The notes beneath the pieces are model-generated. The model worked only from the letters and a program-made list of their open reading frames with translations. It ran no database searches and was not told where the DNA came from. From Rhodocyclales bacterium (GTDB taxonomy: Bacteria > Pseudomonadota > Gammaproteobacteria > Burkholderiales > Rhodocyclaceae), in contig JACRLX010000024.1 in the NCBI GenBank assembly GCA_016235165.1, positions 1 to 64,000 of the forward strand: a stretch of 64,000 nucleotides of DNA, read 5' to 3'. The translations under genes and the position numbers were made by a program. Below, one piece after another: positions 36,489 to 44,024 of the stretch (positions are counted from its first letter, which is position 1; every line of letters starts with the position of its first letter).

Positions 36489-36563
36489 GTCAGGTATCAG
36501 GGATCAGGTATCAGGTATCAGAGGCAGGGCGCTATCGCGGCGATCTGATTCCTGATCCCTGAC
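36489..36563 (-). repeat. Direct/inverted repeat between dsrC and dsrM
   Basis: Three tandem-like CAGGTATCAG units (36491-36521) and an inverted copy (36545-36563). The arms 36496-36514 and 36545-36563 pair over 19 bases with 2 mismatches around a 30-base loop. In the transcript this would protect the 3-prime end of dsrC or dampen readthrough into dsrM. Confidence 0.75.
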
Positions 36564-36568
36564 CTCTG

Positions 36569-38162: not shown

Positions 38163-39242
38163 TCAGAAGCGAACGTGGTTCGACGCGTTGAGGTTGGCCC
38201 GCGAGCCACGCCAATCGTCGATCAGGTACTTGGTGAAGGGCAGGCCGGTCTTTTCGAAGAAACGCGGCCAGCCGATGCGGTCGATCCAGTCGGCCATGCG
38301 CTCCCAGGGGCGGGCGTCGGCCTTGTAGGTGCGCAGGATGCGGCCCACCACTTCGTTGACCTCGGGCCAGCGCGGGGCATTGTTGGGCAGGCCGGAGGCG
38401 ACCATCTTCATGAAGGTGGGCTTGCCGCGCGCGTTGGAGTTCTTGCCGCCGACCCAGATCGCCAGCTTGGAGTGCTCGGGGTCGTTGATCTGCATGGGCG
38501 GGCAGGGGGGGTAGCAGGCGCCGCAGCAGATGCACTTCTTTTCATCGACTTCCAGCGAGGGCTTGCCATTGACCAGGGCCGGACGGATCGCGGCGACCGG
38601 GCAGCGGGCAACCACGGCGGGGCGTTCGCAGACGTTGGCGACGAGGTCGTGGTTGATTTTCGGCGGCTTGGTGTGCTGCACGATCACGGCGAGGTCGGCT
38701 TGGCCGCCGCAATTGATTTCGCAGCAGGAGGTCGAGAGGTGCACGCGGTTGGGCATCTGCTCGTTCTTGAACTCGTCATAGAGCTGGTCCATCATCGACT
38801 TGACCACGCCAGAGGCGTCGGTGCCGGGGATGTCGCAGTGCAGCCAGCCCTGGGTGTGGGCGACCATGGTCACCGAGTTGCCGGTGCCGCCGACGGGGAA
38901 GCCTTCGCCTTCCAGCTTGGCGATCAGCGGATCGACCTTCTTCTGGTCGGCGACGATGTATTCGATGTTGGAACGGATGGTGAAGCGCACGAAGCCTTCG
39001 GCGTACTGCTCGGCGATGTCGCACAGCTTGCGGATGGTATGGGTGTCCATCTGGCGCTGGGTGCCGGCACGCACCGACCAGACCTGGTCGCCGGAATGCG
39101 CGACGTGGTGCAGGACGCCGGGACGGGGGCGATCGTGATACTTCCAGTTGCCCCGGTTCTTCAGCAGCGTCGGGTGCATGTACTTGTCGTTGTCGGGTAC
39201 GCCGCACTCGACCGCCTTGCGCAGTGCTTGGGCTTCAGCCAT
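38163..39242 (-). CDS. dsrB: Dissimilatory sulfite reductase beta subunit (oxidative type)
   Basis: 359 residues. Cluster and sirohaem region: LSTSCCEINCGGQADLAV; ferredoxin insertion: KKCICCGACYPPCPPMQI. With DsrA it forms the alpha2beta2 enzyme that, in the oxidative direction, turns DsrC-bound sulfane sulfur into sulfite. ATG 39242 has an AGGAGA-like sequence upstream (GGAGACAACC). Confidence 0.97.
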   Translation of the reverse strand: MAEAQALRKAVECGVPDNDKYMHPTLLKNRGNWKYHDRPRPGVLHHVAHSGDQVWSVRAGTQRQMDTHTIRKLCDIAEQYAEGFVRFTIRSNIEYIVADQKKVDPLIAKLEGEGFPVGGTGNSVTMVAHTQGWLHCDIPGTDASGVVKSMMDQLYDEFKNEQMPNRVHLSTSCCEINCGGQADLAVIVQHTKPPKINHDLVANVCERPAVVARCPVAAIRPALVNGKPSLEVDEKKCICCGACYPPCPPMQINDPEHSKLAIWVGGKNSNARGKPTFMKMVASGLPNNAPRWPEVNEVVGRILRTYKADARPWERMADWIDRIGWPRFFEKTGLPFTKYLIDDWRGSRANLNASNHVRF

Positions 39243-39332: not shown

Positions 39333-40631
39333 TTAGGCCGCGGCCTTCTTCTTGGCTTCGATCTTCGCCACTTCCTCATCCCAGCCGTCGGTGCGGACGT
39401 AGGGATTGGTGCGCGGCGTATTGATCATGTGCGGATCGACGTCGAGGCCGATGCCTTCGAGGAAGTTCACCAGGCCGATGCGCTCGATCATTTCGCCGGT
39501 GCGCTCGTGCTCCAGCGCGTTTTCGGCGAAGAAGTCGATGATCGACTGGGCCAGTTCGACCAGCTTCTCGCGGTCTTCCTCGGTATCCAGCTTCATGAAG
39601 GGAACCACCAGCGTGCCCATCAGGCCGCCGATCTTGAGGTGGCTCTTGCCGCCGACCAGGATCGAGGCGCCCTTGTCCTTGCCCGGAGCCAGGGCGCCGG
39701 TCATGACGTTGATGCAGTGCATGCAGCGCACGCAGTCCTTGTTGTCGATTTCCAGGCACTGCTTGCCATCCAGCGCCACGGCGGAGATGTGTCCATCCTT
39801 GCGCACCGCGCCGGCATCCTTGATCTGCAGCGCCTTGGTCGGGCAGCGCGAGACCACGTCGTTGATCAGCTCGTTCATGCCGTGCTTGGCGAACCACTTC
39901 TGGCCCAGCTCGTCGTCGGTGCGGATGTTGTCGCGCCAGGTGCCGATCACGGCCATGTCGGAACGCTGGATGGCGTTCATGCAGTCGTTGCCGCAGCCGG
40001 AGAACTTGAACTTGAACTTGTAGGGCAGGGCGGGACGATGGATGTCGTCGAGGAAGCTGTTGATCACCGCCTTGTGCGCCTTGGCTTCGTCGTAGCAGGA
40101 CTGCTCGCAGCGCGCCGCGCCGACGCAGGACATCGAGGTGCGCACGGCCGGGCCGGCGCCGCCGAGGTCGAAGCCCATTTCATTGATCTCGTCCCAGGCC
40201 TTCTGCACGTTTTCGGTGGTGCAGCCCTGCATCATGATGTCGCCCGACTGGCCGTGCAGCGCGATCAGGCCGGAACCGTACTTGTCCCAGATGTCGCAAA
40301 GCTGGCGCAGGGTAGCGGTGTCGTAGTGCATGCCCGGAGGCGGCATGACACGGATGGTGTGGAACTCGGCGGCGTCCTTGAACACGGCCTGGCCGTTGGC
40401 GTCCTTGATCTCGGTGAAGCGGGGGATGACGCCGCCGCCGTAGCCGCGCACGCCGACCGTGCCGCCCTTCCAGTAGCCCTTGCGGGTCTGGTAGGACTGC
40501 TCGAGGTGACCGAGGACATCGACCACGTAGTCCTTGTCCTTGGCCAGGCGCTTCAGGCCGGTGACAAAACTGGGCCAGGGCCCGGTTTCCAGTTGATCCA
40601 GGTTCGGGGTGGGGTGCATGGGCTTGGCCAT
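39333..40631 (-). CDS. dsrA: Dissimilatory sulfite reductase alpha subunit (oxidative type)
   Basis: 432 residues from ATG 40631, with GAGGAGA upstream. Sirohaem-[4Fe-4S] ligands: Cys-x5-Cys in SCVGAARCEQSC and Cys-x3-Cys in SGCGNDCMN. The ferredoxin insertion has CVRCMHCINVM and an upstream RCPTKAL segment. Gene order dsrABEFHCMKLJOPNR is the same as in purple and chemotrophic sulfur oxidisers; no dsrD, the reductive-type marker, is seen. Upstream DNA (40632-40812) is shared with the divergent cassette. Confidence 0.97.
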   Translation of the reverse strand: MAKPMHPTPNLDQLETGPWPSFVTGLKRLAKDKDYVVDVLGHLEQSYQTRKGYWKGGTVGVRGYGGGVIPRFTEIKDANGQAVFKDAAEFHTIRVMPPPGMHYDTATLRQLCDIWDKYGSGLIALHGQSGDIMMQGCTTENVQKAWDEINEMGFDLGGAGPAVRTSMSCVGAARCEQSCYDEAKAHKAVINSFLDDIHRPALPYKFKFKFSGCGNDCMNAIQRSDMAVIGTWRDNIRTDDELGQKWFAKHGMNELINDVVSRCPTKALQIKDAGAVRKDGHISAVALDGKQCLEIDNKDCVRCMHCINVMTGALAPGKDKGASILVGGKSHLKIGGLMGTLVVPFMKLDTEEDREKLVELAQSIIDFFAENALEHERTGEMIERIGLVNFLEGIGLDVDPHMINTPRTNPYVRTDGWDEEVAKIEAKKKAAA

Positions 40632-40812
40632 GGTCAGTCTCTCCTCGTTGTCGGGGTGGTACGCGATTGTCGAATCATAGGGTTGGGTGCGGTGCACAAG
40701 CCATACTCCCGGCAGGTAAACGGACCTACCCGAAAGGGTTATATGCTTCCACTACCTTGCGGGAATGGCCCTGCTACCCGCCGAATGCCATAGTCCCGAC
40801 CCGAGGAAATCC

Positions 40813-41049
40813 GTGGATAACGTCAAGACACTTGCCAAGTTTCGTGTGCCGATCGGCAACCAGGCGATCGAACTCCAGGAGTTCGTCTATGAAGCCGGCG
40901 GCATGCCCATGCTGCGCACGCGCATCCGCGAAGGCAGCCGCTTCACCATCTTCGACATCGATCCGCTGACCGCCGCCCAATGGGGCAAGGTGCTCAGCGA
41001 CTGGGCCGCGGCGCAGCCGGGTGCCGCTACCCCGGGAGGCGAAGCGTGA
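40813..41049 (+). CDS. Small conserved-looking protein of the dsr-flanking cassette
   Basis: 78 residues from GTG 40813, preceded by GAGGA. Sequence includes LAKFRVPIGNQAIELQEFVYE and a REGSRFTIFDIDPLTAAQWGKVL segment. No cysteine and no family I recognise; mostly mixed alpha/beta. It is the first gene of a tight run that diverges from dsrA, and its stop overlaps the next start (GTGA). Confidence 0.65.
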   Translation: MDNVKTLAKFRVPIGNQAIELQEFVYEAGGMPMLRTRIREGSRFTIFDIDPLTAAQWGKVLSDWAAAQPGAATPGGEA

Positions 41050-41672
41050 GGGACTGGCCCGAGGAGGCTTCCGCGAACATGGTCGATGTCGTCTTCGAGC
41101 TCGACGCCGGGACGCTTGCCACCGATCACGCCGAAGCCCTCTCGGTGGCTTTGCGCGCCGCCTTGCCCTGGCTCGACGAGGAGCCGCGCGCCGGCATCCT
41201 GCCCCTTTCCGGTCTGGGGCGTGGCGATGGCGGGCATTTTGTCGGTCGCCGCAGCCGCCTGACGCTGCGCGTGCCCAATCACCGTGGCGCCAGCGCCGAC
41301 TCCTTGAGCGGCCGCCGGCTGGATGTGGCCGGGCAGCCGCTGGGCATCGGCCGCGCCAGCCGGCGCCCCTTGCTGCCGGTGACCGAGGTCGTGTATTCGC
41401 ACTTCGTCAGCTACGAAACGGCGGACGAGATCGCTTTCCTGGCCGCCTGTCGTGCCGAGCTTGCCGAACGCGGCCTCGGCGCGCAGCCGGTCACCGGCCG
41501 TGCCCGTCGCCTGCGCTGCGGCGGAACCGAAGTGCATGGTTTCGCCCTGATGCTGCACGGCCTCAAGCGGGCGGAGTCCGTCGCCATCCAGGAAGCCGGC
41601 CTGGGCCGCCACCATCTGCTGGGCTGCGGCCTGTTCGTGCCGCACAAATCCATCGCCGCCGTTGGCGAATAG
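41046..41672 (+). CDS. Cas6/Cmx6-like protein in the dsr-flanking cassette
   Basis: 208 residues from GTG 41046 (ATG 41079 is an alternative with a cleaner N-terminus, MVDVVFELD). The protein resembles the Cas6/Cmx6 family of type I-MYXAN CRISPR systems, with a ferredoxin-like N-half (LPWLDEEPRAGILPL) and at 185-195 the G-rich loop GLGRHHLLGCG, matching GhGxxxxxGhG, then LFVPHKSI. Cas6 enzymes cut RNA at hairpins. No CRISPR array or other cas gene lies here; it sits between sulfur genes, so a non-CRISPR role is likely. Catalytic residues cannot be judged by eye. Confidence 0.7.
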   Translation: MRDWPEEASANMVDVVFELDAGTLATDHAEALSVALRAALPWLDEEPRAGILPLSGLGRGDGGHFVGRRSRLTLRVPNHRGASADSLSGRRLDVAGQPLGIGRASRRPLLPVTEVVYSHFVSYETADEIAFLAACRAELAERGLGAQPVTGRARRLRCGGTEVHGFALMLHGLKRAESVAIQEAGLGRHHLLGCGLFVPHKSIAAVGE

Positions 41673-41696
41673 CAAGTTCAAAGGGAGAAGACACAC

Positions 41697-42179
41697 ATGA
41701 CAGACATTGCCACCGTCACGCTGGATACCAGCGGGCTACCCTGCCCGGCACCGCTGCTGGGCGCCAAGAAAATCGTCGACGACCTGCAGCCGGGCCAGAC
41801 GCTGAGGCTGATATCGGATTGCCCCGGCACCGCCGATGACCTCTTCGCCTGGGCGAAATTCACCGGCAACCAGGTGCTCGAATCGAAGAAGCAGGCCGAC
41901 GGCAAGACCGCCTACCTGATCCAGCGCGCCGGCAGCGCGGCGGCGACGCCGATCCCGCATGTCACCTTGGACATGCGCGGTGTCTCCTGTCCCGGCCCCA
42001 TCCTCGAAGCGAAAAAACTGCTCGACGGCATGAAGGCCGGCGAGGTATTGCAACTGGTCAGTGATTGCCCCGGTTCGGCCGACGATATCGCTTCCTGGGC
42101 CAAGGCCGGTGCGGCGGAACTGCTGTTCAGCCACGAAACGGGCAAGGGAATTCACGAGTTTTTCTTGAGGAGACGCTAA
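41697..42179 (+). CDS. Tandem TusA-domain sulfurtransferase
   Basis: 160 residues made of two complete TusA domains (about 1-80 and 85-160), each with the CPxP active site: Cys16-PAP and Cys98-PGP. Ordinary TusA is a single 75-80-residue domain. TusA accepts persulfide sulfur from rhodaneses or IscS and passes it to DsrEFH, so this protein could feed the divergent operon. Its TAA overlaps the next ATG by one base. Confidence 0.9.
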   Translation: MTDIATVTLDTSGLPCPAPLLGAKKIVDDLQPGQTLRLISDCPGTADDLFAWAKFTGNQVLESKKQADGKTAYLIQRAGSAAATPIPHVTLDMRGVSCPGPILEAKKLLDGMKAGEVLQLVSDCPGSADDIASWAKAGAAELLFSHETGKGIHEFFLRRR

Positions 42180-42517
42180 TGGGCTACACCATCAACGGAG
42201 TGGAAAAGGAAACCGACGACGACGGCTACCTGCTGGAAGCCGACTTCAGCGCGGAAGCCGTGGAAGCCATCGCCGCCGAGCAGGGCGTCGCGCTGACCGA
42301 TGACCATCGCGCGATCATTGACTTCCTGCGCCGCAAGTACCAGGAAGACGGCCACACGCCCAACCTGCGCAACATGATGAAGATGCTGGAAGATGAACAG
42401 GTCATTGCCGACGTTTCCAGCGCGCGCATGTTCGAACTTTTCCCCGACGGCGGTGCCGCCAAGCAGGGGGTCAAGATCGCCGGCCTGACCAAGCCGTTCG
42501 GCAAAGGCGGCTACTGA
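42179..42517 (+). CDS. DsrC/TusE-family protein without cysteines
   Basis: 112 residues aligned to DsrC along its length (DDDGYLLEADFS; DDHRAIIDFLRRKYQEDG; AARMFELFPDGGAAKQGVKIAGLTKPFGKGGY). Both redox cysteines are missing (Val98 at the Cys99 position, no C-terminal Cys), and the protein has no Cys at all. Such RspA-type homologues cannot carry sulfur and are thought to be regulatory. It is coupled to the tandem TusA gene. Confidence 0.85.
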   Translation: MGYTINGVEKETDDDGYLLEADFSAEAVEAIAAEQGVALTDDHRAIIDFLRRKYQEDGHTPNLRNMMKMLEDEQVIADVSSARMFELFPDGGAAKQGVKIAGLTKPFGKGGY

Positions 42518-42523
42518 TCCCTC

Positions 42524-43129
42524 ATGGCGCTGCGCATCCGCAACAGCTTCCACTCCGGCCGGCCGCGCGCCATGGCCGAGCATGCCAGCGTGATCGCCAT
42601 GCTGGCCTGGAAGCTGGGGCAGGAATCCATCACCCGCATGCGTCAGGCCGACTATGACATCGAGGTCGGGCGCGGCTGGTTCGATTTCGTCTGCGAATAC
42701 CTGTGCTTTCTTGCGCTGTCGGCCGATCGTATCGCCCACGATGACCTGGAACCGGAAACGCGCGCCGAGTTCACGGTGGCACTGGTGAAGCGCCTGGCCG
42801 GGATGGTCGAGGAGGCGCGCGAGGCCCTGCTGCCCGATTTCGCGCCCGGCGCGGCCGGTCGCAACTTCCTCGAACTCTACAACCGGCGCAGCGACGAGTA
42901 CGCCGAGTTCGGCTTCGATGCCGCCGGCCCGGATTTCGGTTTCCGCCGCTGCTTTGCCGCCTGTATCAAGGACACGCTGCCGGAGAAGGATCGCCTGTGG
43001 GCCGTCGATCAGGTCATGGAAATCGAATCGCCCGAGGCGATCAGGACCCTGCAAAAGACCCTGGGTGGATTGTTCCACCCCGAGACCGTGAAAAGTCGGC
43101 GCTCGCGGGACGGCGTTTCCGGTGAGTAA
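42524..43129 (+). CDS. Uncharacterised helical protein of the dsr-flanking cassette
   Basis: 201 residues, predicted mostly helical, with the conserved-looking blocks ASVIAMLAWKLGQESITRM, GWFDFVCEYLCFLALSADR and FGFRRCFAACIKDTLPEKDR. No family recognised and no membrane segment. Its start is 6 bases after the DsrC-like gene and its end overlaps the dioxygenase by 8 bases. The last residues are encoded by a 23-bp repeat copy (43093-43115). Confidence 0.75.
   Translation: MALRIRNSFHSGRPRAMAEHASVIAMLAWKLGQESITRMRQADYDIEVGRGWFDFVCEYLCFLALSADRIAHDDLEPETRAEFTVALVKRLAGMVEEAREALLPDFAPGAAGRNFLELYNRRSDEYAEFGFDAAGPDFGFRRCFAACIKDTLPEKDRLWAVDQVMEIESPEAIRTLQKTLGGLFHPETVKSRRSRDGVSGE
43093..43115 (+). repeat. 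23-bp dispersed repeat, copy h (end of the 201-aa gene)
   Basis: AAGTCGGCGCTCGCG followed by GGACGGCG. It encodes the C-terminal tail in another reading frame than the nifJ and rnfG copies and lies directly upstream of the dioxygenase start. Confidence 0.6.
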
Positions 43130-44024
43130 TCCCTTCGACCTGGCAGACCAGGCAGCCTATGCCGCCTGGCGCGAGAGGAAGCTCGATACCGCGCCGCGTC
43201 GCATCGAGGACATCCTGGTCGCGCTCGACGATCCGCGGCGACTCGCGCCGGCCGAGCGCGCCGCGCTGCTGGAACGCTGCGCCACGGCCAACATGGCGAT
43301 CTACGGCAGCAACACGGTGGGCGACCCCGACAAGGAAATCCCGCGCCAGCTCGGCCGCCAGCTCGGCCTCAAGCGGCTCGACAGCCACTGGCTGACCGAC
43401 GAGGACGCGATTTCGCCGATCTCGGTGCGCGGCGCGGAGGAGCGCAGCGAGCGGCGCGAGTTCATTCCCTATACCGACAAGCCGATCCGCTGGCATACCG
43501 ACGGCTACTACAACACGCCCGAACGCACGGTGCGCGGCCTGATCCTGCACTGCGTGCAAAGCGCCGCCAGCGGCGGCGAAAACCAGTTGCTGGACCACGA
43601 GCTCGCCTACATCCTGCTGCGCGACGAGAATCCCGACCATATCCGGGCGCTGTCGCGCGACGACGTCATGACCATCCCCGCGCGCATGGACGACAACGGC
43701 GTGGCGCGCGCGGCCCAGCCCGGCCCTGTATTTTCCGTCGATTCCGCGGGCTTCCTGCATATGCGCTACACGGCGCGCACGGTCAGCATCGAATGGCGCG
43801 GCGATGGCGCCACGCGCGCGGCGGTGGCGGCACTCGTCCGCATCCTCGCCGCGCCCACGCCGTGGACCCTGCATGGCCGACTGGAGCCCGGCATGGGCCT
43901 GGTCTGCAACAACGTGCTGCACGATCGTGCCGGATTCTCCGAGACGCCGGAGCGTCGCCGCCTGCTGTATCGCGCACGCTACCACGAGCGGGTTGCGGAA
44001 ACTACGGTAATCGCCGCCGGCTGA
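43122..44024 (+). CDS. TauD/TfdA-family Fe(II)/2-oxoglutarate dioxygenase
   Basis: 300 residues from GTG 43122. The facial triad is visible: His-x-Asp in IRWHTDGYYN and the distal His in NNVLHDRAGFS, followed by RRRLLYRARYHE for 2-oxoglutarate. TauD proteins hydroxylate sulfonates such as taurine to release sulfite, which would fit a sulfur locus, but relatives act on many substrates. The 8-base overlap with the previous gene places it in the same operon. Confidence 0.82.
   Translation: MSNPFDLADQAAYAAWRERKLDTAPRRIEDILVALDDPRRLAPAERAALLERCATANMAIYGSNTVGDPDKEIPRQLGRQLGLKRLDSHWLTDEDAISPISVRGAEERSERREFIPYTDKPIRWHTDGYYNTPERTVRGLILHCVQSAASGGENQLLDHELAYILLRDENPDHIRALSRDDVMTIPARMDDNGVARAAQPGPVFSVDSAGFLHMRYTARTVSIEWRGDGATRAAVAALVRILAAPTPWTLHGRLEPGMGLVCNNVLHDRAGFSETPERRRLLYRARYHERVAETTVIAAG

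Follow-up and report, generated by a model that had tools for sequence, protein, structure and literature searches.

A Cas6-family gene apart from CRISPR is tied to dsrA and may encode an RNA-binding factor of reverse-Dsr sulfur oxidation

The stretch analyzed here, 64,000 nucleotides of contig JACRLX010000024.1 from a Rhodocyclales bacterium (assembly GCA_016235165.1; hereafter the window), carries at positions 41046–41672 (+ strand) a gene for a Cas6-family protein of 208 amino acids starting with GTG. Inside the class sampled, this gene and dsrA co-occur almost one to one, and the gene usually lies close to dsrA and divergent from it; it has no tie to cas1 or to CRISPR arrays. We consider the chances about even that this branch of the Cas6 family acts outside CRISPR as an RNA-binding, and possibly RNA-cutting, factor of sulfur oxidation by the reverse dissimilatory sulfite reductase (reverse-Dsr) pathway. 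The gene is the second of a six-gene run on the + strand (hereafter the cassette) that is divergent from dsrA, as described in the first-pass annotation of this DNA.

The annotation had called the protein Cas6/Cmx6-like, and both profile scores and the predicted fold identify it as a true member of the Cas6 family. It matched PF09559 with 161.8 bits (cut-off, 26.7; expectation value (E), 2.4e-47) and TIGR02807, which NCBI names "type I-MYXAN Cas6/Cmx6," with 133.3 bits (cut-off, 98.85), and the Cas6 models of PADLOC concurred. The AlphaFold model, which was built with a 73-row alignment (A1), had a predicted local distance difference test score of 92.7 and a predicted template modeling score of 0.89, and the tandem ferredoxin-like (RNA recognition motif) fold of Cas6 was present in it. 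The top matches of this model in a Foldseek search of the PDB were 8fcu_B and 8fcj_B, Cas6 of the type I-B CRISPR-associated transposon (CAST), with a template modeling (TM) score of 0.84, followed by further Cas6 proteins; the structural comparison with Cas6 proposed in the annotation thus returned a Cas6 fold. The glycine-rich loop GhGxxxxxGhG reported for residues 185–195 reads GLGRHHLLGCG, in which G185, G193, and G195 are invariant in A1 and G187 is conserved in at least 90% of its rows. Mutation of loop glycines is reported to have abolished cleavage by P. furiosus Cas6, and Gly-256 and Gly-258 to be essential in Haloferax Cas6 (PMC3945376). The predicted fold and the loop point to RNA binding by the protein encoded in the window.

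Co-occurrence with dsr across genomes, which the annotation had put forward as a check, was examined in a class sample of 369 genomes, in which the gene was detected by the A1 profile and dsrA by TIGR02064. A1 matched 118 genomes, with all best matches below an E of 1e-35 and no weaker genome match up to 1e-3, and each of them had one gene except G264, in which it was split in two pieces. dsrA was found in 112 genomes by the curated cut-off and in 119 at E < 1e-30, a threshold that was set after a gap between 6.1e-33 and 8e-19 had been seen. At this threshold, both genes were present in 111 genomes, the Cas6-like gene alone in 7, dsrA alone in 8, and neither in 243 (phi 0.907). In an order sample of 205 genomes, the corresponding numbers were 37, 0, 4, and 164 (phi 0.94); the window's own genome belongs to both samples. 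The association with dsr extends over lineages of both beta- and gammaproteobacteria. The named loci, three of them with exact counterparts in the sample, suggest that the class holds both groups, and carriers include Parasulfuritortus cantonensis LSR1, Rubrivivax albus ICH-3, and Ideonella aquatica 4Y11. Within families f4, f35, and f136, the two genes are present or absent together, with both genes in some genomes and neither in others (G001 and G159 vs. G270; G032 and G177 vs. G284; G247 and G343 vs. G134). For five of the seven carriers without dsrA (G093, G186, G299, G317, and G318), genomes of the same family hold both genes, and the absence of dsrA is therefore likely due to assembly gaps; in G127, which also has the gene and no dsrA, the cassette reaches the contig end.

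In the class sample, 82 of the 118 copies were located less than 4.5 kb from dsrA on the same contig, at a median distance of 1.7 kb, and all 82 were divergent from it; the other 36 had no dsrA within 20 kb on their contig. In the order sample, none of the 37 copies was more than 5 kb away from dsrA (median distance, 600 bases), and all were divergent from it. The cassette may be co-regulated with dsr. Reading by eye revealed 11 class genomes in which the copy lies more than 10 kb from dsrA (G009, G042, G057, G097, G109, G180, G194, G226, G240, G305, and G325), a set limited to the visible cases, the contig end being known for only a minority of minus-strand copies. dsrA was present elsewhere in all 11, and linkage alone therefore does not explain the tie between the two genes. 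The gene could still be a passenger linked to dsr with no role in sulfur oxidation, as the tight linkage in most genomes and the near confinement to one class would allow, but its retention in these 11 genomes and the near invariance of its residues over many families make this very improbable.

The surroundings of the gene are those of sulfur oxidation and not of CRISPR. No cas effector genes neighbor the Cas6-like gene, and sulfur-oxidation genes adjoin it instead. The annotation had stated that no array is in the window, and none was found there by a simple exact-20-mer test, which does find both arrays elsewhere in the host genome. Applied to the stretches examined of 77 related loci, the same test gave a single match, in L010, which was not CRISPR and was dismissed as a repeat of units of about 100–109 bp. 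Homologues are thus not restricted to the vicinity of arrays, a question that the annotation had raised and that was addressed here with these 77 loci and the 369 genomes. In the class sample, the Cas6-like gene and cas1 were found together in 51 genomes, the Cas6-like gene alone in 67, cas1 alone in 85, and neither in 166 (phi 0.09, p 0.084); the corresponding values for dsrA and cas1 were phi 0.11 and p 0.038.

The host genome has one PF09559 gene, which is 41046–41672, and two Cas1 genes, both on other contigs. Its contig 35 (L082) carries a type I-C set (cas3, cas5c, cas8c, cas7c, cas4, cas1, and cas2) with an array, and its contig 22 (L083) carries a Cas9 set with an array. Type I-C systems have no Cas6, its work being done by Cas5d (a passage of PMC3945376), and the CRISPR RNA (crRNA) of type II systems is processed by RNase III (a passage of PMC6452270). 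Since neither system needs Cas6 by its known mechanism and no array is in the window, the gene is not a part of the CRISPR systems of its host. Cas6 can serve type III systems in trans, according to a section of PMC12669027, and a member of this family might likewise process pre-crRNA for arrays elsewhere in the genome. This is extremely improbable here: the two host systems use Cas5 and RNase III, respectively, no Cas10 over the cut-off was found in the host, and the presence of the gene is not tied to cas1, which is missing from 67 of the 118 carriers. A Csm1 match in the host was rejected, as it reached 20.6 bits against a cut-off of 170 and covered model positions 2–80 only.

In an unrooted tree, 104 relatives were split with a support of 100/99 from eight CRISPR references and the Gloeobacter Cas6 (L150). 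The references were 8fcj_B and seven cyanobacterial plasmid Cas6 genes, which are adjoined by cas8 or cmx8, a cas7-type gene (annotated Cas8 in L149), and cas5, and in six of the seven cases, L145 being the exception, also by cas3. Four short sequences (L068, L071, L077, and L100) and the window copies (L001/L079) were left out of the 104-row counts, L150 was placed in neither group for residue counts, and the number of distinct sequences is slightly under 104 because L027/L114, L053/L134, and L052/L132, which come from two collections, are identical. Fifteen copies with no dsr gene in the stretch examined (4.5 to 16.7 kb) fell on the side of the 104 rows. R69 (104 rows), G151 and K201 (103 rows each), E128 (102 rows), and H200 (99 rows; window numbering throughout) are nearly invariant in the branch, and none of them is general among the eight references. 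R75 and the glycine-rich loop are common to the branch and the references, the loop glycines being retained in 101 to 103 of the 104 rows. By these sequence comparisons, the branch is a separate clade from the CRISPR references and has near-invariant residues of its own. A metagenome-assembled genome of Defluviicoccus (Rhodospirillaceae) holds a copy (L062, 8001–8603) that groups with the gammaproteobacterial L034, L039, and L063; this exception to the class limits reflects either transfer or mis-binning.

The Cas6-like protein would usually be produced from the cassette divergent from dsrA, together with a small partner protein, a helical protein, a TauD-type dioxygenase, and a paralogue of DsrC that lacks the cysteine at the C-terminus. 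A single specific cellular RNA is the probable ligand of the Cas6-like protein, which would contact it via the conserved glycine-rich loop and basic residues and thereby adjust its processing, stability, or translation during sulfur oxidation. Cutting of the RNA may also be part of this role: the histidine that directly follows strand 1 is retained in most rows (H28: H in 92 of the 104 rows, Y in 10, T in 1, and a gap in 1; H in six of the eight references); a second histidine is lost. The catalytic Cas6 histidine has been placed after the first strand in a section of PMC3150331, where a printed reviewer comment disputes its conservation; catalytic residues vary among Cas6 proteins, one of which has no histidine, as stated in part of PMC3945376. 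A more detailed version, which we put forward tentatively and with some doubt, holds that the dsr cluster of this class acquired a Cas6-family protein on a single occasion, or that the protein was never of CRISPR origin, and that it came to be an almost fixed RNA factor in the reverse-Dsr pathway; it would recognize a dedicated cellular RNA and, with a DsrC lacking the carrier cysteine and with 2-oxoglutarate oxygenases, couple the processing or modification of RNA to the oxidation of sulfur.

Several observations weigh against a role as RNA factor of this pathway. The Fisher p of 7e-75 for the association with dsrA in the class sample ignores the relatedness of the genomes. Eight of the 119 class genomes with dsrA lack the gene, including three that are 94 to 99% complete (G110, G123, and G207), as do 4 of the 41 in the order sample. 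In a phylum sample of 239 genomes, 47 were over the dsrA cut-off; two of them had the gene, both from the window's order, and all 45 dsrA genomes outside the class (45/45) did without it, and the gene is therefore not intrinsic to Dsr. As for an RNA target, no Rfam match at gathering score was found in the window, and the hairpins in the dsr gaps vary in place and sequence by lineage, with no constant one among them. The column of D44 has H in six of the eight CRISPR references vs. 1 of the 104 branch rows, column 52 has H in 93 branch rows and leucine in the window's clade, and three branch rows have no histidine at any of columns 28, 44, and 52. Finally, a protein partner could be the reason why the Cas6 fold is conserved.

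This last point leads to a protein that has kept the Cas6 fold and lost its RNA work, serving as a structural or regulatory protein that, for example, binds a cassette partner or uses C194 of the loop. The lost histidine at the D44 column, the near-invariant H200 and K201, and the conservation of C194 in 103 of the 104 branch rows are compatible with it. However, CRISPR Cas6 proteins retain C194 to the same degree (seven of the eight references), so that this residue says little about sulfur, and the loop and the basic residues are nearly invariant; we regard such a protein as rather improbable.

A possible involvement of RNA raises the question of the dsr transcript itself. The strong intergenic hairpins that the first-pass annotation had noticed in the window are present, with −30.3 (dsrA–dsrB), −47.5 (dsrF–dsrH; 157 nt), and −36.9 kcal/mol (dsrC–dsrM), and one hypothesis put forward there was that the protein processes dsr mRNA, or another RNA. 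In related loci, gaps no shorter than 30 nt, delimited by approximate gene ends, were compared with 30 shuffles, and z-scores below −2 were seen in 8 of 29 dsrA–dsrB, 8 of 12 dsrB–dsrE, 1 of 13 dsrE–dsrF, 0 of 2 dsrF–dsrH, 1 of 24 dsrH–dsrC, and 13 of 40 dsrC–dsrM gaps. The dsrF–dsrH hairpin is not general, as these two genes mostly overlap in relatives (median gap, −13; 41 loci). Among 40 loci with six gaps measured from dsrA to dsrM, 32 had at least one gap below −15 kcal/mol, and 8 had none. One hairpin, GGGACAGA...TCTGTCC and then CAACTGAYTAG, recurred in 4 of the 77 loci (part of it in L022). L025 has four copies of it, in dsrA–dsrB, in dsrB–dsrE, and twice upstream of dsrA, one of them with a compensating base change; copies are located at L025 7454–7530 (+), 6146 (−), and 5005 (−), L031 6270 (−), and L037 5211 (−). 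This hairpin could serve as a target or as a terminator, or it could belong to a mobile repeat.

Cutting of the polycistronic dsr mRNA at intergenic hairpins, which would set subunit ratios, is a special case of the RNA-factor reading, and we judge it unlikely. The divergent position of the gene next to dsrA, the strength of the window hairpins, their frequency in other loci, and the compensating change in the recurring hairpin speak for it. In the other direction, 8 of the 40 loci have no such gap, GC-rich gaps fold readily, and terminators or mobile repeats look alike. The gene is also retained when unlinked from dsr, although a dsr mRNA target would still be compatible with this. The hairpins are frequent; as a constant substrate they were rejected, because they are neither constant nor one element. 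At the dsrC–dsrM spacer of the window (36489–36568), repeated GATCAGG/CCTGATC units form a long hairpin; the large hairpins found at this spacer in other lineages are different ones.

The other five genes of the cassette are all on the + strand. A 78-amino-acid DUF6967 protein (40813–41049; Pfam E, 1.6e-29) comes first, its stop overlapping the start codon of the Cas6-like gene (PF09559 E, 2.4e-47, with the near-invariants given above). A tandem TusA of 160 amino acids (41697–42179; PF01206 E, 3.2e-37), a DsrC-like protein (42179–42517; Pfam DsrC E, 5.4e-27), a 201-amino-acid protein with no Pfam match (42524–43129), and a TauD/TfdA-family dioxygenase of 300 amino acids (43122–44024; Pfam TauD E, 1.3e-15) follow. 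The gaps between the six genes are −4, 24, −1, 6, and −8 bases, in agreement with the spacing described earlier (stop/start overlaps or at most 24 bases). The operon on the opposite strand is dsr: DsrA, DsrB, DsrE, DsrF, DsrH, DsrC, and DsrK are above an NCBIfam cut-off, and DsrM matches its own NCBIfam model with a score under the cut-off. dsrA (39333–40637, −), the first gene of the operon, scored 517 bits against TIGR02064 (cut-off, 392.85), and dsrB (38163–39242, −) scored 506 bits against TIGR02066 (cut-off, 341.5).

Neighbors were counted within 6 kb in the 76 of 77 collection loci with a Cas6-profile match, and the counts are lower bounds, as many contigs are short. dsrA was found near the Cas6-like gene in 55 loci, a DsrC-like gene in 60 (53 on the same strand), a relative of the 201-amino-acid protein in 50, TauD on the same strand in 49, and TusA in 18 (13 on the same strand). 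The gene directly upstream was DUF6967 in 42 of 107 loci, including the window copy, and a 62-amino-acid acidic protein in 28 of 107 (gammaproteobacterial loci); a 120-amino-acid protein or TauD occupies this position in other loci. Homology between the DUF6967 protein of the betaproteobacterial loci and the 62-amino-acid protein was considered, as FxxxDxxP...W looks alike by eye, and was rejected at an hhalign probability of 3.8%.

As read from the sequence, the TusA of the window has CPxP motifs in both halves (CPAP and CPGP, one each). Its DsrC-like protein has no cysteine, not even the penultimate one at the C-terminus of DsrC/TusE sulfur carriers, and ends in GKGGY, vs. TGCV in the DsrC of the dsr operon. 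Of 78 cassette DsrC-like matches (75 loci; the window enters twice), 2 have a cysteine among the last three residues, compared with 42 of 47 DsrC proteins from dsr operons; 20 of the 78 have a cysteine anywhere, and most of the 40 rows displayed end in KGGY. Speculatively, the two glycines near the C-terminus are reminiscent of the tails of sulfur carriers. For the 201-amino-acid protein, a six-helix fold was predicted with confidence, with no PDB match at E ≤ 0.001 (best E, 0.25), and E58, D68, R69, R80, N120, and W159 are invariant in 49 aligned sequences.

TusA and DsrC-like proteins are reminiscent of the Tus relay for transfer RNA (tRNA) thiolation. The Cas6-like protein might accordingly guide or hold a stable RNA, such as tRNA or ribosomal RNA, for modification by the cassette. 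TusA, DsrC-family, and TauD genes do occur in one run, TauD and other 2-oxoglutarate oxygenases could hydroxylate, and L065 encodes a PKHD-type oxygenase that has relatives in 11 of 76 loci. Some relocated copies of the Cas6-like gene also lie beside genes for RNase III, an RlmB-type SpoU methylase, and a likely dusA. However, a C-terminal cysteine is missing from nearly all DsrC-like proteins of the cassettes (present in 2 of 78), same-strand TusA occurs in 13 of 76 loci only, and the RNA-gene neighbors are few and come with no chance estimate; modification of a stable RNA by the cassette is quite unlikely in our assessment. No tRNA gene was found in the window. The relocated copies next to RNA genes are the following. 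Three small genomes, all from family f111, carry the gene directly divergent from rnc, which encodes RNase III (L154, 6666–8044; L155, 6779–8174; L159, 6638–8037), and an era-like gene then follows. In L027, it lies 73 bp after the RlmB-type methylase gene, and in L157, it lies beside the likely dusA, an assignment from reading of the open reading frame. Pfam was run on these RNA-gene neighbors for L154 and L027 only.

Among known systems, the protein resembles the Cas6/Cmx6 of type I-MYXAN (I-B) and of the type I-B CAST (8fcj/8fcu chain B) in its TIGR02807 family, its predicted full-length fold (TM 0.84), the loop GxGxxRxxGCGxFVP, and a DH motif after strand 1. It differs from them in having no cas operon, array, or tie to cas1, in its separate clade, in the loss of the histidine of the D44 column, and in R69, E128, G151, H200, and K201 of its own. 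In Cas6e/CasE of type I-E, the catalytic histidine is located near the start of helix 1. The loop GIGPAKSMGCGL of this protein aligns with the window loop, but the profile comparison aligned nothing beyond this loop, and PDB fold matches were lower-scoring; the alignment was therefore rejected as a means of locating the catalytic histidine. The accessory proteins of the reverse-Dsr pathway (TusA, DsrEFH, and DsrC) are encoded in the same gene region, and the cassette holds TusA and a DsrC paralogue, which, unlike reverse-Dsr DsrC, has no C-terminal cysteine.

Exapted CRISPR parts, as far as covered in the accessible portions of PMC8730458 and PMC6452270, are similar in that a CRISPR-type protein is found in a non-immune setting; those examples are Cascade-like or effector modules, many of them on mobile elements, whereas here a lone Cas6 is found in a metabolic cluster. 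The word "sulfur" occurs 0 times in these two reviews, and a search of the literature, mostly in open full texts and limited to their accessible parts, found no description of a Cas6-type protein in dsr clusters. Cas6 is described in a section of PMC12669027 as a dedicated crRNA-processing nuclease. The near one-to-one tracking of a core energy pathway by this branch within the class, with no tie to CRISPR, suggests a place in central metabolism for a CRISPR-type RNA protein and points to an additional RNA step in sulfur oxidation. It also means that "cas6" annotations in sulfur oxidizers can mislead CRISPR surveys, as NCBI TIGR02807 fires on 41046–41672.

A palindrome, ACCCGAAAGGGT (40728–40739), lies where dsrA and the cassette diverge and may be a shared operator. 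It or a variant of it was present in 22 of 53 related loci vs. 3.7 expected from mononucleotide shuffles, with the loci related to one another. Since the pattern was picked after the sequences had been inspected, an operator common to dsr and the cassette is a lead only. On the Gloeobacter morelensis plasmid pGMOR1, the Cas6/Cmx6-annotated gene of L150 (5971–6762) has no annotated cas neighbors and lies near PAPS-reductase-family and cupin genes, and it is perhaps another non-CRISPR Cas6.

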